Assembly: GCF_022867865.1 (NCBI RefSeq)
Contig: NZ_JALIEC010000014.1
Location: 1 to 64,000 of the forward strand
Direction: 5' to 3'
Origin: Phaeobacter sp. J2-8
GTDB lineage: Bacteria; Pseudomonadota; Alphaproteobacteria; Rhodobacterales; Rhodobacteraceae
DNA length: 64,000 bases
Both the position numbers and the translations under genes were made by a program. Shown here one piece after another: positions 33,813-53,086 of this stretch. Position 1 is the first letter of the stretch, and each line of letters begins with the position of its first letter. The notes below the pieces were generated by a model that worked only from the letters and a program-made list of their open reading frames with translations, had not been told where the DNA came from and did no database searches.

Positions 33813-34328
33813 ATGGATACAATGACCTCGACCAAGATTCTGGGTGGCTTCTGCGGAGCATTCCTGATCTTCCTCTTGGGCAAATGGGCCGCTGAAGAGC
33901 TTTATCATACCGGTGGTGGCCACGGCGACCACGCTGAACAGGCATATGTGATCGACACCGGCGAAGAGTCCGGCGGTGGCGATGTGGCCGAAGGCCCGAC
34001 ATTCGCCGAATTGCTGGCCAGCGCCGACATCGCCAAGGGCGAAAAAGTGTACGGCAAATGCCGGGCTTGTCACAAAATCGAAGACGGTGTGAACAGCACC
34101 GGACCATCGCTTTATGACATTGTTGGCCGCACGGTCGGCAGCGAAGAAGGTTTCGGCTATTCCGGCTCGCTTGTTGCGGTGGCCGATGTCTGGACCCCCG
34201 AGGCGCTTGACGGTTTCCTGGCCAATCCCAAGGGATTTGCACCGGGCACCAAAATGTCCTTTGCTGGTTTGAAAAAACCTGAGGACCGCGCCAATATCGT
34301 GGCTTGGCTGGACAGTCTCGACAACTGA
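33813..34328 (+). CDS. Membrane-anchored cytochrome c (class I, c552 type)
   Basis: The 171-aa protein has an uncleaved N-terminal membrane anchor (residues 8-24), an acidic linker (EQAYVIDTGEESGGGDVAEG) and one class I heme c domain with the CRACH motif (residues 75-79) and the methionine ligand in GTKMSFAGL. Membrane-tethered cytochromes of this type (CycM/CycY) pass electrons from the bc1 complex to terminal oxidases. The AAGGA site precedes ATG 33813. A perfect terminator follows. Confidence 0.9.
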   Translation: MDTMTSTKILGGFCGAFLIFLLGKWAAEELYHTGGGHGDHAEQAYVIDTGEESGGGDVAEGPTFAELLASADIAKGEKVYGKCRACHKIEDGVNSTGPSLYDIVGRTVGSEEGFGYSGSLVAVADVWTPEALDGFLANPKGFAPGTKMSFAGLKKPEDRANIVAWLDSLDN

Positions 34329-42953: not shown

Positions 42954-43022
42954 ACACCCGCCCGTAGGTTGCAAGACCGCGCTGTGATAGTCTGGTGGCA
43001 ATTGGCGTGGACGGAGGCCCCC

Positions 43023-43804
43023 ATGGCTGAGACAACCCTGTTGATCGGCACCAACAAAGGCGCGTTCCTGTTGAACGGCAATGCGGACCGCCAGCAATGG
43101 TCTGTCACCGGCCCATTCTGTGACGGCTGGCGCATCAACCACATGACCAGCGATCCTGAAACCGGCACCATTTGGGCGGCCGGTGGCGGCGAATTCTTTG
43201 GCGCAGGTGTCTGGCGGACCGACGATGGTGGGCAAACCTGGACCCTTAGCAAACTTGCCGATGGTCAGCTGGACGAAAGGGTGCGCAACGATCCCGAAGC
43301 GGCCCGGCTTTTTGACCTGTCCCCCGCCCCGCCCGCGCCCTTCAGTGGCCAGATCGACGCGCTTTGGTCCGTGCACCACACGCCGAATGCCATCTACGTC
43401 GGGGCAAAACCGGCCCAATTGTTCGCCAGCAAAGATGGCGGCACCACTTGGGAAAAACTGACAGCCGCATGATCTGGACATTGCCGTTGAACGGCGATTC
43501 CCAAGGGCGCTTTCCGCCCGGGGCCTCGGCCGCGATATGGAAATCGACCGACGGCGGCGACACATGGACAAAGAAGCAAACCGGCATGCCGGTGGAAAAC
43601 TGCTATTTCACCGTGCTGCGCCAGGCCATGGCCACCGACGGATCCTCGCCTGCCGGGGTATATTTCGGCACCAAGTCCGGGTCGATCTTTGCCAATTTTT
43701 CCGCCGGTGATTCCTGGTCCGAAATTGCCCGGCATCTGCCAACTGTTTTATGTGTCGAGGTCTTGGAGCGCAGGTCACGCGAGTTGCCCATGCCACCGCC
43801 CTGA
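43023..43804 (+). pseudogene. BNR/WD40-like repeat protein, damaged (deletion plus frameshift)
   Basis: The first part (149 codons from ATG 43023) begins AETTLLIGTNKGAFLLNG and carries BNR repeats (DDGGQTWTL, DGGTTWEKL). It ends at a stop at 43470-43472. The sequence then continues in another frame with MIWTLPLNGDSQGRFPPG, STDGGDTWTKKQTGMP and NCYFTVLRQAMA to the end. Family members of this kind are about 350-400 aa; here the two parts join without roughly 120-130 middle residues. So besides a frameshift, an internal deletion near 43455-43475 has occurred, in the organism or in assembly. Confidence 0.65.
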
Positions 43805-44360: not shown

Positions 44361-44555
44361 TTTACCGAATTCAACAGACACGCCCCGATGGGGCAATCGC
44401 GCCCCACAGACGGGGAACGCGGGCTTGGCCCAGCTGTCACGGCGTCTGGCACGCCAGCGTGATTGCAGCGCCCTCGATGGAATCATGTGACTGGTCAGCC
44501 GTCAGGTCATGGTCGCATTGATTGCGCGCGACCTGAGCGTGCCCCCTGTATGTCC

Positions 44556-44600
44556 GAGCGATGTTTGACCGTGCGATGTGTGACCTTGCGATCTGCACCC
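44556..44600. repeat. 15-bp tandem repeat, three units
   Basis: Three units of 15 bp (GAGCGATGTTTGACC, GTGCGATGTGTGACC, TTGCGATCTGCACCC) lie end to end. The first two differ at 3 positions; the third is more degenerate. The array lies downstream of dddT. Confidence 0.55.
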
Positions 44601-44651
44601 GATGGGCCAGCCCCACCTGCCCGCCCCAGGACCCGCAGGCAATTGGCCGAT

Positions 44652-44676
44652 AAAAAAAGGGGGCTCTAAAGCCCCC
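44652..44676 (-). terminator. Rho-independent terminator of the ddd operon
   Basis: On the reverse strand, a 7-bp stem GGGGGCT/AGCCCCC with a short loop is followed by seven T residues. It lies about 10 nt downstream of the BCCT gene stop. Confidence 0.9.
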
Positions 44677-44685
44677 CTTCAAAGA

Positions 44686-46341
44686 TCAGTCTTCGGAATG
44701 AACTGCCTGCACTCCGTTTCTCTCGCGGATGCCGTCTTTCCAGATCGCTTTGACAAGGGAAACGCACATCAACCCCATCACCAGCGAAAATGGCAACGCG
44801 CCGATCACCATGGCGGATTGGATCGCCCCGACACCGCCCGCGATCAGCAACCCGCCCACAACCAGGGACAGGGCCACCCCCCAGAAGATGATGTGCGGTC
44901 GGCCAGAGGGCTTCTCTGCACCGGCGGCGTTGATGGTGTTGACGATCAGGATCGCGGAATCCGCGGTTGTCACCAGATAGGTCAGCAACAAGACAACAAC
45001 GATCACCGCCATCACCCAGGCCGCCCCGGACCCAAGGATGAAATCAAGCATCGCAAACAGCTGGTTCTGTTGCCCCGCGCCGGAAATTGCATCGCCTGCG
45101 CCGCCGTTCAGGGTCAGATCAATCGCTGTGCCCCCCACAATGGTGAACCAGACGAAACACATGATGGAGGGAATAATGATCGCACCCAGAATGTATTCAC
45201 GAAGCGTACGACCCCGCGAGATCCGGGCAAGGAACACCCCGACAAACGGCGCAAATGCGATCCACCATGCCCAATAGAAAACAGACCACCCGCCCTGCCA
45301 GCTTGCCAGCTGCGCGGCTTCGCTGCCCTCGACGCCATCAGATGTCCAAACGGTGAACAGCAATTTTGGCAATTGGATGATGTAGGTGAACAGCCCCTCT
45401 ACGAGCGCGGTCAAACCAAAGAATGTGGACCCGAACACCAAGAAGAACGCGAGCAAGAAGAAGCTCAGCCCCATGTTGATGTTGGAAAGCCATTTGATGC
45501 CTTTGCCAACGCCCGACAACGCCGACAAGGTAGATGCACCCATGATGATCAAAAGCGCGGTGATCACACCGGCCGTGGACGGCGCGCCGGTGTCCGCAAC
45601 AATAAGCCAGTCACCAAAACCGATCCGGTGCAGACCGGATACGAATTGCTCGACCCCGAAACCAAGCGTCTGTGCCACGCCCAGAATGGTGGCCACCACG
45701 GCGACAACATCCACGACATGGCCCAGGATACCAGAGAGCTTCTCGCCGAACAGCGGCGTCAGCGCAGAGCGGATGGTCAGAGGCAAGTTGCGACGATAGG
45801 AAAAATACGCCAGCGACAGCCCAACGATGGCGTAACATGCCCAGGCGGAAAACCCCCAATGCAGGAATGACCAAAGATAGGCGTTGTTGACATTATCGGC
45901 GGCCGAGGCCCCGGTTTCGCCCATGATCACATTGGGGTTTGTGGCAAAATGATACATCGGTTCGGCGGTTGCAAAGGTCAGCATGCCAATGCCGATGCCC
46001 GCGCCGAACATCATCGAAAACCAGGAGAAACTGGAAAATTCCGGTGTATCCCCATCCAGCCCAAGTTTCAGACGGCCCGTGCTGGGGATCAGCGCCAGAA
46101 CGATACACACAATCAGGAAAAGCGCGACGACGTAGATATACCAGCTTGAAAATGTCCCAAGCAAAGACCCGTTGAGATCGCCAAGGATTGTTGCTGCTTT
46201 CTCTGGCACCGCAATGGCCCAGACGATCAGAGCCGCAATCAGAATTTTGGATGTGATCGCGACATCTTTGCTGAAACCAGCGTAAAATCCGCGCTCCGCG
46301 GTTCGGATAGGTAATTCCATCAATGGGGGTTTATTGGCCAT
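44686..46341 (-). CDS. dddT: BCCT family transporter, probable DMSP/betaine uptake
   Basis: The 551-aa protein has 12 predicted transmembrane helices and the BCCT hallmarks: MMFGAGIGIGMLTFATAEP in helix 3 and the HWGFSAWACYAIVGLSLAYF segment, where the tryptophan box for the trimethylammonium or dimethylsulfonium head lies. BCCT carriers import betaine, choline, carnitine or DMSP. Its place directly downstream of the DddD-type gene matches dddT in known DMSP clusters. ATG 46341 follows an AGGAGGAAAC site. Betaine or choline uptake is the main alternative. Confidence 0.88.
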   Translation of the reverse strand: MANKPPLMELPIRTAERGFYAGFSKDVAITSKILIAALIVWAIAVPEKAATILGDLNGSLLGTFSSWYIYVVALFLIVCIVLALIPSTGRLKLGLDGDTPEFSSFSWFSMMFGAGIGIGMLTFATAEPMYHFATNPNVIMGETGASAADNVNNAYLWSFLHWGFSAWACYAIVGLSLAYFSYRRNLPLTIRSALTPLFGEKLSGILGHVVDVVAVVATILGVAQTLGFGVEQFVSGLHRIGFGDWLIVADTGAPSTAGVITALLIIMGASTLSALSGVGKGIKWLSNINMGLSFFLLAFFLVFGSTFFGLTALVEGLFTYIIQLPKLLFTVWTSDGVEGSEAAQLASWQGGWSVFYWAWWIAFAPFVGVFLARISRGRTLREYILGAIIIPSIMCFVWFTIVGGTAIDLTLNGGAGDAISGAGQQNQLFAMLDFILGSGAAWVMAVIVVVLLLTYLVTTADSAILIVNTINAAGAEKPSGRPHIIFWGVALSLVVGGLLIAGGVGAIQSAMVIGALPFSLVMGLMCVSLVKAIWKDGIRERNGVQAVHSED

Positions 46342-46387
46342 GTTTCCTCCTGAATGGCTGGTGAACGCCAGGCGCAATCGGCCCTCC

Positions 46388-46408
46388 CACGTGATGTGTC
46401 ATCACGTG
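46388..46408. promoter_or_regulatory. Perfect inverted repeat ahead of dddT
   Basis: CACGTGATG (46388-46396) and CATCACGTG (46400-46408) are exact inverted copies separated by TGT. The element lies 47 bp upstream of the dddT start, in the 176-bp gap between dddD and dddT. It could be a regulator site or an mRNA hairpin that sets dddT expression. Confidence 0.55.
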
Positions 46409-46517
46409 ACCGATCAATTCATGCGGCTGGCTGGGAATTCGGGCATTGGCGTTGGTCAATGCCCGTCGCTGTGCGTCACTGGTGCTTGCCCGGATGTGCG
46501 GCAAACACATGATCCGA

Positions 46518-49025
46518 TCAACTTGGCAGGTATTCTTCGCTCCAGGAATTGGTCAGATTTCCGGATTTGAGTATCGCCTCTATCGCGCTTTCGGCGTAGC
46601 CGAGTTCCGAAAGGATTGCGCGGGTCGACGCGCCGAATTTCTCGGCTGGGGCCACGGCAACCACTTTTGCACGCGTGGATCGCACGGCATAGGGATCAAG
46701 CTGGATAACCTCATGGCCGCTTGGGTGATCGGGGTATCTTGAGAACGAATAGCTGCCGTTTTCGGTTCCCGCTGTGCCATCCGCATCGCGCAGGTTTTGC
46801 GCCCGAAGCGAATTGAGGTTTTCACAGATCACCGCACCGACATCTGCGGCTTGCAAACGTGCGACCCATTCCGTTGCGGGCTGTAATTGAAAGGCATTTG
46901 CCAAAAACGCGGCGCGCTCTTCCTCTGGCAAATCCGGCAGCTGTTCCAGCCCCTCGACATTGCGGAACAACGGCAGATCGCCCTCATAGGCGCTGAGCAG
47001 GATGTATTGCGACGCCGTGCTATAGAACCTTGCAAGCGCGTTATAGCCGCTTGCCTCCGGGCCGGAAGGTTCATCAAAAAGCCCCCTGCCCCGATAGTCA
47101 TAGGCAAACGGCACCTGCAACAATCCGCTGTTGGCGGTCAGCGACGTGCGCCCGCGACCAATGCGGCCATGGCGGTGTTTCTGATAAAGCGCCGCCGCAA
47201 CAGCCAGGGCGCCACCGAAACCGCACATCACGTCGATCGTGCCGACATGGGCGTGTTCCTCGGGGCGGTCCATCGCGCCGCCAAAGCGCAGCATGATGCC
47301 CGTTGCCGCCTGAACCAGATCGTCATAGCCGATGTAATCCGTTCGGGCACCGCGCCGCACACCGCTGAAACAATCCAGCTTGCAGAACAGCGCATCAGGA
47401 TTGAGCTTGCGCAGATTGTCGGCGTCCAGCCCCATCTTCTTGATCTGGTTGTCGGGGGCATTCCAGACAATGATATCAACGGATTTCACCAGATCTTCAA
47501 ACACCTGCCGCCCGTGGCGGGATGTGATGTCCGCCAGGATGGACCGTTTGCCGCGCATTTGCGACATGCCATAGATGACGGTGTTCCAGCTGTCATACAT
47601 CGGCTCTGCCGGTTCCAGTTTGATCACCTCGGCCCCGAAACGCGCCAGATAGCTGGCCGAATGTGGCCCCGCGATCACGTTGCACAGATCCAGAATACGC
47701 ACCCCCGACAACCATCCGTCCGGCACCGCGTCCTCTGTCACTTCGGGGATTTCGGTGCGTATCTTCCTTAAAATCTTCAGCGCCTCGTCATATTCCACCC
47801 AGCGACGCGGTTCGGGTTTCAGCGCCTCTTCGCCGCTTTCCTCCATCCATACGACGGGACCGGGTTGGGTCATTTCCCCATAAACAGGATCCCATACGTC
47901 GATCATCAAACCAGAGGCTTCGGCATATTCGTCGTGAATCCACTCTTGCAGCCACCGTTGCGGCGCGCCCGGAATAAGCCCGCGACCAAACATCTTTTTC
48001 CACTCGTGCGAGGTGCGGGTCATAAAGACCTCTTTCATCCGCTCCGAGATCTTGTCGGCCCAGTCCTTTGGCATCGGATACACCCCGAGCGAGGTTTTAT
48101 GCTCCCACTCCGACCACGGCCGATAGGTGTTTTCCTCGGATGTCAGCCCCTCTTCCAGCAGCTCATCATAGATGCCCAGCACCTCAAGACAGCGGCGCGC
48201 ATGGTTCTTGTGGCTGGGGCAGACCACATAGAACATGCGCCCGTCCTTGCACATGTAGCTGCGGAAAAACGGGTCCATCAGCTCTTGCAGCTCTTCATAG
48301 CTGACATTCATCGGAAGACCTTCGATGCGGCGGCGCTCTATCTCCATCTCGCGCTGGGTCAGATAGCGTTCGGGCATCCCGTCAACCTTGATCGAGTTAT
48401 AGCACAGCCCCTCCATCACGGCGGCGGCAAGCGGCACCTCGATCTGATCGCCAAGGCCGGTGACCTGACGTGATTGCAGCGCCAGCACCGTGGCCGAAGC
48501 GGCGATCTGTGACGCATAGGCCGAGGCCAGCGGCAGCGGCGAAAACGACGGGTTCAACCCCATCAGAACCCGGTTCAGCCCCATGTCGGTAAAGACGCCC
48601 GAACTGGCCGCGACAATGCTTTCATAGGCACGCAATTCGCGGCGCTCGGCATCATTCGAGGCAAACCCCGGCACCGAAATGGTGATCAGCTCTGGCCGCT
48701 CCGCGCGCATGGCGGCGAAATCAATGCCCAGCTTGGCCAGCTTGCCGGGGCGGAAATTCTCAACAATGATGTCGGCCTCGGCACAGAGCGCCAGCGCCTG
48801 TTCCAACCCGTCTTCGGTTTTCAGATCCAGATTTACGATGACCTTGTTCCGGTTCAACGTGGCATTGGCCGGGCTGTCCCATATCGCGCCCGCGGGCGGA
48901 TCAATATGCACGACCGTGGCCCCCAGATCGCCAAGAAGCATCGCAACAGCGGGGCCCGCAATATACTGGCCAAAATCCACGACTTTCACACCGGTAAGCG
49001 GCAGTTTGGAAAACGAATTTCGCAT
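46518..49025 (-). CDS. dddD: DddD-type DMSP CoA-transferase/lyase (double CaiB domains)
   Basis: The 835-aa protein consists of two fused class III CoA-transferase (CaiB/BaiF) domains, about residues 1-420 and 440-835. This length and fusion are typical of DddD, which converts DMSP (with acetyl-CoA) to 3-hydroxypropionate-CoA and volatile DMS. The text closely follows known DddD proteins: VVDFGQYIAGPAVAMLLGDL, GFASNDAERRELRAYESIVA, MNVSYEELQELMDPFFRSYM and the CNVIAGPHSASYLARFGAE start of domain 2. Asp598 in the HVGTIDVMCG context sits where these enzymes have their catalytic aspartate. Start ATG 49025 has a GGAGGTCAC site. It lies between dddA and dddT on one strand. Confidence 0.88.
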   Translation of the reverse strand: MRNSFSKLPLTGVKVVDFGQYIAGPAVAMLLGDLGATVVHIDPPAGAIWDSPANATLNRNKVIVNLDLKTEDGLEQALALCAEADIIVENFRPGKLAKLGIDFAAMRAERPELITISVPGFASNDAERRELRAYESIVAASSGVFTDMGLNRVLMGLNPSFSPLPLASAYASQIAASATVLALQSRQVTGLGDQIEVPLAAAVMEGLCYNSIKVDGMPERYLTQREMEIERRRIEGLPMNVSYEELQELMDPFFRSYMCKDGRMFYVVCPSHKNHARRCLEVLGIYDELLEEGLTSEENTYRPWSEWEHKTSLGVYPMPKDWADKISERMKEVFMTRTSHEWKKMFGRGLIPGAPQRWLQEWIHDEYAEASGLMIDVWDPVYGEMTQPGPVVWMEESGEEALKPEPRRWVEYDEALKILRKIRTEIPEVTEDAVPDGWLSGVRILDLCNVIAGPHSASYLARFGAEVIKLEPAEPMYDSWNTVIYGMSQMRGKRSILADITSRHGRQVFEDLVKSVDIIVWNAPDNQIKKMGLDADNLRKLNPDALFCKLDCFSGVRRGARTDYIGYDDLVQAATGIMLRFGGAMDRPEEHAHVGTIDVMCGFGGALAVAAALYQKHRHGRIGRGRTSLTANSGLLQVPFAYDYRGRGLFDEPSGPEASGYNALARFYSTASQYILLSAYEGDLPLFRNVEGLEQLPDLPEEERAAFLANAFQLQPATEWVARLQAADVGAVICENLNSLRAQNLRDADGTAGTENGSYSFSRYPDHPSGHEVIQLDPYAVRSTRAKVVAVAPAEKFGASTRAILSELGYAESAIEAILKSGNLTNSWSEEYLPS

Positions 49026-49066
49026 GTGACCTCCAGAAAGGCTTCTCATGTTTTTGATGATCGGGG

Positions 49067-50734
49067 TTATTGACCCGCCAAAATCCAGCCTGCCGCTTTT
49101 TCCGCGATCATGATGGTGGGGGAATTGGTGTTTCCGCTGGTAATCTCTGGCATGACAGAGGCATCAACGACGCGCAGCCCCGCGACACCCTTGAGCCGCA
49201 GATGCGGGTCCAGAACAGCGGTGTTGTCGTCCGCGCGGCCCATTTTGACGGTGCCGACGGGGTGGAAAATCGTGCTGGCAATATCGCCGGCAAGCCGGGC
49301 CAGATCCGCGTCGCTTTGGTATTGAATGCCGGGTTTGTATTCCTCGGGCTCATAAGGCTGCATCGCCGATTGCGCCATGATTTCACGCACCTGACGCAGG
49401 CTGTCTGCCGCCACCTTTCGATCATCTTCCGTGTCGAGATAGTTGGGCGAGATTTTCGGCGCATCCCGGAAATCGGCAGAGGCAATGCGCACATGGCCGC
49501 GGCTGGTGGGGTTCAGGTTGCAGACGCTGACGGTCATCGCCGGAAAATCATGCAGATCATCACCAAAAGCCTCAAGGCTGAGCGGTTGCACGTGATATTC
49601 CAGATTGGCATGAGAGCGCGAGGGATCAGACCGGGTGAAGGCGCCCAGCTGGCTGGGTGACATGCTCATCGGGCCCGACCGTTTGAACAGATATTCCAAC
49701 CCGATCTTGGCCTTTCCGATCATGGAATTGGCCAGGGTGTTCATGGTGCTTGTGCCCTTGACCTTGAACACCGCCCGGATTTGCAAATGGTCTTGCAGGT
49801 TCTCACCGACAAAGGGCTGGTCCATGACCACGTCGATGCCATGTGCCTTCAGCAATTCAGCCGGACCAATCCCCGAAAGCTGAAGGATCTGCGGCGAATT
49901 CACTGCCCCGGCAGACAAAACCACCTCGCGCGCGGCTTTGACGACGGTGGATGTGCCCGCACGCTGAACCTTGGCCCCGACACAGCGCAGTTTGCCGTCG
50001 TCCGTCTTGTCAAAGACAAGCTTTTCGACCTGTGCTTCGGTCCAGATGGTCAAGTTGGGGCGTTGTTTGGCCGGGCGCAGGAACGCCTTGGATGTGTTCC
50101 AGCGCCAGCCGGACCGCTGGTTCACATCGAAATAGCCGACACCGGCATTGTCGCCACTGTTGAAGTCGTCGGTTTTCTGGATGCCGGTTTCCACCGCAGC
50201 ATCGGCAAAGCTGTCCAGAACGTCCCAGCGCAGGCGCTGCTTTTCGATCCGCCATTCGCCGCCGTGGCCATGCATATCGGAAAACCGGCTGTTGTCACCG
50301 GTGACCGGATCGGCGCCATCATCCAGCTTGTAATGGTCTTCATGCGCTTTGAAATTGACCAGCGAATTTTCCCAGTTCCAGGCCTCCTCACCGGTCAACG
50401 CAGCCCAATTGTCGTAATCGCGCGCCTGACCGCGCATATAGATCATGCCGTTGATCGACGAACATCCACCCAGCGTTTTTCCGCGCGGATACAAAAAACT
50501 CCGCCCGTTCAAACCTTTGTCCGGCTCGGTCTTGTACATCCAATCGGCCCGTGGGTTGCCGATGCAGTAGAGATAGCCGACGGGAATGTAAATCCACGGA
50601 TAGGTGTCCGGCTTGCCAGCCTCCAGAAGCAGCACCCGGTTCGCTGGATCCGCGCTCAACCGATTGGCCATCAAACACCCGGCAGAGCCGCCACCAATTA
50701 CGATAAAGTCAAACCCGTTTGAAGCTTCGGACAT
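49067..50734 (-). CDS. dddA: GMC oxidoreductase, DddA-like/choline dehydrogenase-like
   Basis: The 555-aa FAD enzyme of the GMC family has the N-terminal dinucleotide motif VIGGGSAGCLMANRLS, the LGGCSSINGMIYMRGQA signature, and the C-terminal active-site motifs STIFHPVGTVKMG (catalytic His) and NTNSPTIMIAEKAA. In Halomonas, DddA of this family oxidises 3-hydroxypropionate made by DddD to malonate semialdehyde. The same family contains choline dehydrogenase. Its place 42 nt upstream of dddD makes the DddA role most likely. A dddC aldehyde dehydrogenase is not present here. Confidence 0.83.
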   Translation of the reverse strand: MSEASNGFDFIVIGGGSAGCLMANRLSADPANRVLLLEAGKPDTYPWIYIPVGYLYCIGNPRADWMYKTEPDKGLNGRSFLYPRGKTLGGCSSINGMIYMRGQARDYDNWAALTGEEAWNWENSLVNFKAHEDHYKLDDGADPVTGDNSRFSDMHGHGGEWRIEKQRLRWDVLDSFADAAVETGIQKTDDFNSGDNAGVGYFDVNQRSGWRWNTSKAFLRPAKQRPNLTIWTEAQVEKLVFDKTDDGKLRCVGAKVQRAGTSTVVKAAREVVLSAGAVNSPQILQLSGIGPAELLKAHGIDVVMDQPFVGENLQDHLQIRAVFKVKGTSTMNTLANSMIGKAKIGLEYLFKRSGPMSMSPSQLGAFTRSDPSRSHANLEYHVQPLSLEAFGDDLHDFPAMTVSVCNLNPTSRGHVRIASADFRDAPKISPNYLDTEDDRKVAADSLRQVREIMAQSAMQPYEPEEYKPGIQYQSDADLARLAGDIASTIFHPVGTVKMGRADDNTAVLDPHLRLKGVAGLRVVDASVMPEITSGNTNSPTIMIAEKAAGWILAGQ

Positions 50735-50921
50735 AACGCCCCCCATCCATAAGTCATAGCATTGTCGACCGCGCAGACAGGGGGAGTTGATGAACCAGAA
50801 ACCGCGTTTTGCCGCGTCGGCAAAAGCAGTTCGATCCGGTCACGTCCCCTCCCCGAACGCGAATTTCGATAAGCTTTGGGCGAGGGCCGCAAAAAAACCT
50901 AATGACAAATGCCACACAGTA

Positions 50922-50940
50922 ATATTAGGAATTTTAATAT
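50922..50940. promoter_or_regulatory. LysR-type inverted repeat between dddA and the LysR gene
   Basis: ATATTA (50922-50927) and TAATAT (50935-50940) form a perfect inverted repeat with a 7-nt spacer. It contains the T-N11-A core of LysR binding sites. It lies in the divergent dddA/dddR promoter region and overlaps the chosen LysR start codon at 50939, so it may serve for autoregulation. Confidence 0.6.
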
Positions 50941-51850
50941 GGATCGTTTCTCGAATATTAACAGCATCTTGGCCTTTGTGACCGTGGCACGAGAAGGGAG
51001 CGTTTCGCGCGCCGCCGAGGTTTTGAACCTGACGCAACCCGCGATCAGCCATCAGATAAAGCGGCTGGCCGAAGAGACCGGAATCGTCTTGTTCAACCGC
51101 ACCGCCACCGGGCTCCGGCTAAGTCATGATGGTGCCGCGGTGCTGGCCAAGGCGGAACATGTTCTTGAATCAATGAACGATTTCCACCGCAGCGCACGGC
51201 GGCGTTCCGGTCGCATCAGCGGAAAGCTCAAGATCGGGACAATTGTCGATCCCGAATTCATCCGCCTGGGTCGGATGCTGGCACGCCTGCGCACGGAACA
51301 CCCTGACATCGAAACCGAGCTGACCCATGGTGTCAGCGGCGATATTCTGGTCTGGCTGAAGCGCAACCAAATTGACGCCGGATTCTATCTGTGTGGTCCC
51401 ACGGATCTGGCGCAGATGGGATCAGAAGTCGAAGATCCAATACATGCGATCAAGCTTGCAGACTTCAGCTATCGCATCATCGGTCCGGTCGGTTGGCAGA
51501 ACAAGATCGAGAACGCCGACTGGACCTCGCTGGCGACGTTGCCCTGGATCGGCACACCGGACAGATCGGTGCATCACCGGCTTTTGGCCAAGGTGTATCA
51601 GGATCTCGATGAACGTCTGAACGTCGTTGCCCGTGTCGACCAAGAGGCCTCGATGCTGGAAATGGTGCGGTCTGGTATCGGGCTGAGCCTGTGCCGTGAA
51701 TCCATTGCCCTGCACCAAAAACAATCCTTTGGCCTTGCGGTCTGCAACTCTGTTTCGGTGCCGGCCTGTCTGTGTTTCGTCGCATTGGACCGCCGCAAGG
51801 ACAGCCCGGTGCTTACCGAGCTGTTCAATTTGCTGCAAAGCCTGTGGTAA
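50939..51850 (+). CDS. dddR: LysR family regulator of the ddd cluster
   Basis: The 303-aa protein has a LysR helix-turn-helix (VAREGSVSRAAEVLNLTQPAISHQIKRL, residues 17-44) and a C-terminal substrate-binding domain. It is transcribed away from dddA-dddD-dddT, the classic layout for a LysR activator of the opposing operon. DddR is of this family in Marinomonas and Halomonas. The start at 50939 gives MDRFSNINSILAF; an in-frame ATG at 50909 would add 10 residues. An AGGA site lies 12 nt ahead of 50939. Confidence 0.83.
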   Translation: MDRFSNINSILAFVTVAREGSVSRAAEVLNLTQPAISHQIKRLAEETGIVLFNRTATGLRLSHDGAAVLAKAEHVLESMNDFHRSARRRSGRISGKLKIGTIVDPEFIRLGRMLARLRTEHPDIETELTHGVSGDILVWLKRNQIDAGFYLCGPTDLAQMGSEVEDPIHAIKLADFSYRIIGPVGWQNKIENADWTSLATLPWIGTPDRSVHHRLLAKVYQDLDERLNVVARVDQEASMLEMVRSGIGLSLCRESIALHQKQSFGLAVCNSVSVPACLCFVALDRRKDSPVLTELFNLLQSLW

Positions 51851-52095
51851 CGAGAAGTCCACTCAAGCCCCTGAAATAAAATCGCTTTCACCACTTGGCC
51901 GTCGAATTTCCGCAGCCAAATCAATCAATTTCCCGGCGCGCGCCTTTTGCGCAACCAGTGGTTTACCTCAGACCCGGGACACATCGCAGACCCTACATTC
52001 ACAAAAGTTCTCACTGCCATAGCCGGGCGCTATTTGCGTGAAAACCGGGTTCGGTATTCCATGGACAAAATTGTTGTGTCCACAGGAGAGAAAAA

Positions 52096-53086
52096 ATAAA
52101 TCACTCAATCAAACGACTGAAAACCGGTGTTCTGGCGGCCTGCCTTGCGGCGCTTTCATCCACGACGGCGCTTGCCGCCGACGTGTCGGTGCGGCTGGGT
52201 CACGTCCTGCCGGAAAGCCACAGCTGGCATATCGCGGCGACCGGCTTTGCCGACGAAGTGACCGCCAAAACCGACGGCCGCGTCAAGATCGAGGTCTTTG
52301 CCTCGGGCCAGCTGGGCAGCGAAAAAGAGGTGATCGAAGGTCTGCAATTCGGCTCGGTTCAGGCCTGGCCTGATTGGATCGGGGTCGTTTCAGGCGATCG
52401 AGCCGCGCATGGGCATCATCGAAATGCCTTATGCCTGGGGCGCGCGGGATCAGGCCTTTGCCGCGCTTGACGGCGATCTTGGTGACGCGCTGGAAGAGAT
52501 GCTGGATGCCAAGGGCATCAAGGTTCTGGGCTGGTGGGAAAACGGCTTCCGCAACATCACCAACAGCGTGCGCCCGATTGAAAAACCTGCCGATCTGGAC
52601 GGTATCAAAATCCGCGTAACCCCGGACAAAGTGCGCCTCGCCACGTTTGAGGGCCTTGGGGCCGAACCCGCGCCGCTGTCGTTTGGCGAGCTGTATTCGG
52701 CGCTGCAACAGGGGGTATTTGACGCTCAGGAAAACCCGCTGGCGATCATCTATTCCTCGTCCTTCTTTGAGGTTCAGAAATACGTTTCGATGTCCGAACA
52801 CATCTGGGGTGCGGCGACATTGACCATGTCCAACGCCACATGGAACAAGATTTCGCCAGAAGATCAGGCCATCGTGACCGAGGCCGCCACCAGCTGGGGC
52901 GCGCAACAGCGTGATATGGTTGCCGCCGCCAATGCCGAATTGGTCGCGCAACTGGAAGCCAAGGGCATGATCTTCAACGAGGTCGATAAAGCCGCATTCA
53001 TCGAAGCGGTTGCGCCGATCTGGGAAGATCAAAAAGACGTCTACGGCGAAGATCTCCTGGCCATTTTGAATACCTACCGCAAATGA
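52096..53086 (+). CDS. dctP: TRAP transporter substrate-binding protein DctP (frameshift; atypical start)
   Basis: The product, of about 329 aa, has a signal peptide (RLKTGVLAACLAALSSTTALAA) and the DctP domain: VRLGHVLPESHSWHIAATGFADEV, then GLQFGSVQAW, and NPLAIIYSSSFFEVQKYVS. The frame breaks near 52370-52400; after it SFQAIEPRMGIIEMPYAWG continues normally. No ATG, GTG or TTG lies at the head of the frame. The best ribosome site, AGGAG, points to ATA at 52096. The gene overlaps the cupin gene by 4 nt. The ligand is unknown; TRAP proteins bind organic acids or zwitterions. Confidence 0.85.

Follow-up and report, generated by a model that had tools for sequence, protein, structure and literature searches.

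Whether Phaeobacter sp. J2-8 can release dimethyl sulfide (DMS) from dimethylsulfoniopropionate (DMSP) by the DddD route is the question raised by positions 44686 to 51850 of the window, whose 64,000 bases are the start of a 64,501-base contig; the genome measures 4.80 Mb (17 contigs, scored 95% complete). The initial annotation had described a complete-looking DMSP catabolic cluster here, dddA-dddD-dddT with a divergent LysR gene. Our analysis makes it very probable that the region forms a self-contained cassette bearing an operon for DMSP catabolism of the DddD type. The GMC dehydrogenase, double CaiB, BCCT carrier and LysR genes were all recovered as open reading frames with the expected Pfam domains, and all four are open, the LysR gene on the plus strand and the other three on the minus strand (Table 1). 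The wording "complete-looking" was loose, since the cluster is without dddC, an absence that the initial annotation itself noted.

Table 1. Coordinates of the features of the predicted ddd operon within the window
Feature	Position	Strand	Basis
Intrinsic terminator closing the predicted operon, GC-rich hairpin and T run	44651..44680	-	Fold; end of conserved block
BCCT carrier, dddT-like, 551 aa	44686..46341	-	Pfam BCCT 488.7 bits; linkage to dddD
DddD, predicted DMSP CoA-transferase/lyase, 835 aa, two CaiB-type halves	46518..49025	-	Pfam, tree, alignment
GMC alcohol dehydrogenase, dddA-like, predicted 3-hydroxypropionate oxidation, 555 aa	49067..50734	-	Pfam GMC_oxred N and C
Predicted LysR operator, inverted repeat CCTAAT-N20-ATTAGG, core CTAATGACA-N14-ATATTA	50898..50929		Conserved motif
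LysR-type regulator, dddR-like, 303 aa	50939..51850	+	Pfam HTH_1 and LysR_substrate

The double CaiB protein, which occurs in the genome as a single full-length copy, contains the two CoA_transf_3 stretches (373.1 bits) expected of the fusion noted in the initial annotation, and its length fits the build of a double class III CoA-transferase (CaiB) of about 830 residues. When compared by tblastn with named plasmids (identities from the best 40 of 1188 records), it was 88% identical to the protein of Phaeobacter piscinae pP13_b, 65–67% to most Rhizobium, Agrobacterium and Sinorhizobium records among the matches listed (66% over the full length for NGR234 pNGR234b), about 60% to two Ensifer records, 59% to Paraburkholderia, 52–53% to Pseudomonas, and 41–44% to Ruegeria AD91A, THAF33, one Shinella record and Dinoroseobacter shibae. 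Identity to DddD at eight Psychrobacter loci was 68–69%. In the C-terminal half, Asp598 falls at the position of an aspartate in formyl-CoA transferase 10uh, which we take to be the catalytic residue of the family, and Ser168 lies at the equivalent place in the N-terminal half; both residues are invariant in 116 of 116 aligned rows. Because Ser168 replaces Asp in the N-terminal half, one of the two ancestral active sites appears to have been lost. In Marinomonas DddD the catalytic aspartate of the C-terminal half is presumably Asp602. The protein would be expected to release DMS from DMSP with acetyl-CoA as the CoA donor.

A tree of the 116 rows (four duplicate record pairs, L170=L012, L174=L018, L175=L038 and L178=L062, and one row, L083, with 31 unknown residues) was read as an unrooted tree for its splits and supports. 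It separated 106 rows, including the window, NGR234, Psychrobacter, Paraburkholderia and the Pseudomonadales, from 10 D. shibae-type rows, the split having a support of 1.0 and a branch of 1.1. The Psychrobacter DddDs (support 1.0) joined the window's group of 55 in a group of 63 (support 0.986), and the other Pseudomonadales rows plus L011 formed a separate group of 15 (support 1.0); deeper nodes were weak (0.766 and 0.105). PMC8520302 lists as functionally ratified the DddDs of NGR234, Burkholderia AMMD, Psychrobacter J466, Pseudomonas J465, Halomonas HTNK1, Marinomonas MWYL1 and Oceanimonas, and we infer that its NGR234 accession is the gene compared here. The DddD identity first proposed for 46518–49025 is supported by grouping with ratified DddD and by a fully supported split from the other double-CaiB family; in the alignments that the initial annotation had called for, the NGR234 protein was 66% identical and the other family only 41–45%.

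That second roseobacter family (L012, L013 and L166–L173) has the same domain build, a similar length and the same Asp, and a window protein belonging to it would have been miscalled as DddD. We regard this as extremely unlikely, given the low identity, the branch that divides the two, and 30 near-fixed residue differences between the DddD group and the D. shibae-type family. Moreover, GMC, BCCT, methylmalonate-semialdehyde dehydrogenase (MMSDH) or iron-containing alcohol dehydrogenase (iron-ADH) neighbours were found in 0 of 8 fetched regions of the D. shibae type, and two genomes (G121 and G172) carry both families. The copy on D. shibae pDSHI01, for example, shares the two CaiB halves and the conserved Asp but is 41% identical, has other neighbours and falls on the separate side of the tree. 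Among 296 genomes of the window's family, in which three candidates per genome were scored so that counts may be low, true DddD (at least 64% identity) was present in 14, one of them partial (383 aa), and the D. shibae type in 8. These counts cover the double-CaiB proteins alone, and a lower frequency of the DddD route than of DddL, DddP, DddQ or DddW in the group is a suggestion of the initial annotation. Neighbours of the D. shibae type vary, with cyanophycin genes near the Ruegeria AD91A copy and a dimethylformamidase-like gene in D. shibae. According to PMC6309047, a DddD-like protein from Microbacterium, 35.64% similar to the DddD of Marinomonas, failed to cleave DMSP, which supports keeping distant double-CaiB proteins apart. 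Ruegeria pomeroyi SPO1703 is used or labelled as DddD in PMC5395565 and PMC4334477, and R. pomeroyi SPO_RS08640 is termed "DddD-like" in PMC9769926. The published dddD primers (PMC7370799) have two forward mismatches and one reverse mismatch to the window, at least one reverse mismatch in every one of the 90 rows with an identity of 60% or more, and 0–1 reverse with 4–7 forward mismatches to the 41–45% family. Concern over these mismatches is eased by the presence of NGR234, whose locus has three reverse mismatches, among the test strains named in that paper.

The genes within 7 kb of dddD were counted, with contig ends uncorrected, at the named genome loci of the best 80 among 369 relatives. 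A GMC gene was found at 70 loci, an iron-ADH (dddB-like) gene at 8, and one or the other at 78, neither being present in L059 and L066; LysR-type genes occurred at 65 loci, BCCT genes at 39 (with a lax threshold of 30%) and MMSDH genes at 19. In the 50 relatives whose DddD is at least 75% identical to that of the window, the corresponding numbers were 49 for GMC, 49 for LysR and 4 for MMSDH. All eight Psychrobacter loci have the order iron-ADH, MMSDH, DddD, BCCT, and their BCCTs are 62–68% identical to the window carrier. Of 19 match places, 14 were fetched (two 69%-identical and three partial places were left out); in these 14 Pseudomonadales regions (DddD 52–55% identical) iron-ADH and MMSDH occur together in 12, a BCCT (33–39%) in 11 and GMC in none. 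The Psychrobacter clusters (L064, L067, L069, L071, L073, L077, L079 and L080) are mosaics, with DddD and BCCT resembling those of Alphaproteobacteria and an iron-ADH as in other Pseudomonadales.

These neighbours reveal only the three-carbon remainder of the substrate, not its leaving group, and the locus might encode a CoA-transferase/lyase of the double-CaiB type that acts on a different C3 onium acid, for example beta-alanine betaine (with release of trimethylamine) or dimethylsulfoxonium propionate (DMSOP), and takes DMSP only as a side substrate. The ability of BCCT carriers to move betaines and the occurrence of close relatives in soil- and plant-associated Rhizobium, Agrobacterium and Paraburkholderia are in keeping with such a function. 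We nevertheless consider it improbable, as NGR234, within the same group, is among the ratified DddDs (PMC8520302), and the Psychrobacter and Pseudomonadales relatives lie in dddBCDT-type clusters, a kind which PMC9327192 ties to growth on DMSP. Only a slight chance attaches to a broader idea, in which the dddA-dddD(-dddT) cassette of Alphaproteobacteria, operator included, serves as a mobile unit for the use of C3 onium acids generally, and its enzyme may accept beta-alanine betaine or DMSOP as well as DMSP or better; if true, this would account for the occurrence of the cassette in soil and root bacteria.

For a DddD acting on DMSP, the remaining question is how 3-hydroxypropionate (3-HP) would be used. 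A gene of the 3-HP dehydrogenase type adjoins dddD, the GMC gene lying 41 nt upstream; its product scored below the betA cut-off (469.9 versus 732.1 bits) and is predicted from family and position to be DddA. The initial annotation had dddA accompanying dddD in both Marinomonas and Halomonas, and this holds for the Halomonadaceae; the dehydrogenase gene linked to dddD in Marinomonas is dddB (PMC9327192). No dddC, encoding the CoA-acylating semialdehyde dehydrogenase, was found in the window cluster, nor within 7 kb in 46 of the 50 closest relatives. The suggestion that 3-HP oxidation finishes elsewhere fits the genome, which encodes a CoA-acylating MMSDH on contig C10 (3004–4488; TIGR01722, 668.6 bits against a cut-off of 448.5) with a divergent LysR gene adjoining. 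Searches for other DMSP routes gave no match to PF16867 (DMSP_lyase) in the genome, with no positive control among the control genomes, and no DmdA: the GcvT-sized GCV_T protein is GcvT (75.3 versus the DmdA cut-off of 410), and of four long GCV_T proteins three scored 41.6 or were unlisted for the DmdA model while the fourth was left untyped. The five M24 matches in the genome comprise two methionyl aminopeptidases, the two halves of a DoeA-like gene, and one protein of 592 aa without a close model.

We then considered how the cluster may be controlled. In 64 of the 116 rows the LysR and GMC genes diverge, and alignment of 52 LysR-GMC spacers revealed a single strongly conserved stretch, TAATAT-N14-TGTCATTAG; in the window it forms a perfect inverted repeat that ends nine nt ahead of the LysR gene. 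If up to three mismatches are allowed, the motif is present in the LysR-GMC spacer of 61 of the 64 divergent rows (29 exact, 20 with one mismatch, 3 with two and 9 with three), and with up to two mismatches in 52 of the 64, all at the same offset from the LysR start; without duplicate records these counts become 59 of 62 and 50 of 62. In seven of the nine rows with three mismatches, all seven rhizobial or Hoeflea-type, the offset differs, and the divergent rows missing the motif at three mismatches are NGR234 (5 mismatches), L072 (4) and L081 (4). Elsewhere in 2.1 Mb the motif (three mismatches or fewer) occurred 25 times. Across the 4.8 Mb of the strain's own genome the site was the sole exact match, with 19 others all at three mismatches, and a reversed control gave 11. 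The inverted repeat is thus likely to be the operator of the divergent LysR gene, whose product may control the ddd genes in response to DMSP or 3-HP in the manner of DddR or AcuZ. A regulon shared with mmsA through this motif was also considered and set aside, as the genome holds no second match with fewer than three mismatches.

The extent of the conserved unit was delimited by blastn of window positions 34000–62000 against the 116 rows, in which the relatives' loci extend at most about 7–8 kb past the block on each side. Four relatives matched in a single unbroken block: L014 (44652–51840, 79%), L015 (44656–51852, 80%), L019 (44652–51801, 77%) and L026 (44654–51841, 78%). The same span was matched in two or three pieces in L007, L016, L017, L020, L021 and L023; L018, L024 and L028 were without the BCCT part, and L025 had its BCCT match elsewhere. 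Outside 44500–51900, only four short matches were seen over all rows, two of them at tRNA genes. The conserved 7.2-kb unit runs from the terminator to the LysR stop, with unshared flanks and a left edge at 44652–44656 in the four relatives. In three congeners there was no DNA match to the unit at E 1e-10 except for pieces of the GMC region, although the left-flank genes and the tRNA-Met/tRNA-Gln pair are present; for one of them, G090, a protein search likewise found no DddD. In P. piscinae the unit sits on a plasmid typed as conjugative, and the grouping of Psychrobacter DddDs with the window, apart from other Pseudomonadales, suggests transfer. Together these features point to the dddA-dddD-dddT and LysR block as a transferable, self-contained unit. 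Comparison with an empty site was limited: G090 preserves the order of left flank and tRNA pair, but its contig stops 476 nt after tRNA-Gln, the tRNA pair is inverted in G591, and flank and tRNAs are on separate contigs in G592. Insertion into the tRNA-Gln gene was rejected, the tRNA being intact and the conserved block beginning about 290 nt beyond it, as was foreign base composition, for which the difference is weak (GC 0.56–0.59 in the unit versus 0.58–0.68 around it).

An acquired block need not function, and a decayed or silent operon, without working DMSP use in this strain, was weighed; the missing DNA match in the three congeners and the broken genes on both sides (43019–43761 and a frame change in a TRAP gene near 52370) would suit it. 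Such decay is nonetheless quite unlikely, because the four genes are open, ribosome sites are in place, and the terminator and predicted operator are intact. The intergenic gaps measure 204 nt (LysR-GMC), 41 nt (GMC-dddD) and 176 nt (dddD-BCCT), and the BCCT gene is predicted to share a transcript with dddD across the last of these. The terminator claimed after the BCCT gene was substantiated by a hairpin 3' of the stop with a minimum free energy of -22.8 kcal/mol (z -3.53; none of 200 shuffles equal), which was absent from the list of a simple consensus terminator scan. A promoter scan gave 2 sites versus 3.5 in shuffles. The BCCT start was taken at an ATG preceded by GGAGG (551 aa), the listed 563-aa open reading frame using an upstream TTG. 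For LysR there is an alternative in-frame ATG at 50909; the start at 50939 was chosen because the annotated P. piscinae orthologue has 303 aa. To the left of the tRNA pair, 43019–43761 resembles a pseudogene, with about 400 nt missing mid-gene and two frames relative to the intact 402-aa G591 gene. To the right, a TRAP substrate-binding protein gene (about 52090–53086) shifts frame near 52370, where congener G591 (L207) has the stretch in one frame; the shift may be an assembly error or a real break. The DoeA-like ectoine hydrolase gene on contig C16 (79057–79685; L110 and L111) is also split over two frames, its first half scoring 373.7 bits against a whole-protein cut-off of 613, and the assembly may therefore hold frame errors.

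Several points weigh against the reading as a DMSP operon. No NCBIfam DddD model matched the double CaiB protein (all seven matched models were below cut-off, and none is DddD), so the DddD claim draws on grouping and neighbours. A BCCT gene lies near dddD in only 25 of the 50 closest relatives. The window carrier shares 62–92% identity with the dddD-linked BCCTs of roseobacters, Leucothrix and Psychrobacter, but among solved BCCT structures it scored higher against 8ybq (317 bits), a trimethylamine transporter (300) and BetP (258) than against DddT-named chains (185). PMC13270143 describes both BetP-like and D2-like DddTs beside lyase genes, and also two DddT-like carriers that did not transport DMSP. 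The substrate is unreadable from sequence, and import of DMSP by this carrier is presumed. Other DMSP routes may exist beside DddD, as no search with specific models was made for DddX, DddY, DddK and DddP. Finally, the DddD, DddA and DddT proteins of Halomonas and Marinomonas were compared by description rather than by alignment.

On that descriptive level, DddD, a BCCT and a LysR protein are shared with Marinomonas MWYL1 (dddBCDRT) and Halomonas HTNK1/D47 (dddT-dddD and dddC-dddA plus acu genes), and Halomonas uses dddA as the window unit does by family (PMC9327192 and PMC13104084). The window unit differs in its order, dddA-dddD-dddT with divergent LysR, and in having neither dddC nor acu genes. 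P. piscinae pP13_b has the same layout (LysR 82%, GMC 92%, DddD 88% and BCCT 81% identical), but there the cluster is followed by a second LysR gene and a dddC-like CoA-acylating MMSDH gene. NGR234 shares the divergent LysR (48%), GMC (73%) and DddD (66%), yet no BCCT gene was found in 18.5 kb and the operator motif is poorly kept. Rhodobacteraceae bacterium HTCC2083 shares LysR (72%), GMC (84%) and DddD (85%), with no BCCT match in its 22.5-kb locus; PMC3338564 describes it as a roseobacter with a DddD homologue of predicted lyase activity.

Read from the genes and their neighbours, every catalytic, transport and regulatory step of the following scheme is predicted. The BCCT carrier would import DMSP, probably with Na+, and DddD would transfer CoA from acetyl-CoA to DMSP via Asp598, freeing DMS and leaving 3-hydroxypropionyl-CoA/3-HP. 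The GMC enzyme would oxidize 3-HP to malonate semialdehyde, which the MMSDH encoded on contig C10 could convert to acetyl-CoA, while the divergent LysR protein would act at the inverted repeat to regulate both its own gene and the operon. Genes of this kind are already known, and the additions made here are the predicted control site and the clean cassette limits. The distinction between true DddD and the 41–45% family is important for gene surveys in which all double-CaiB proteins are counted as DddD. In this strain DddD would feed DMSP carbon into growth and release DMS, and the clean limits of the cassette, together with its predicted operator, make transfer and control directly testable.

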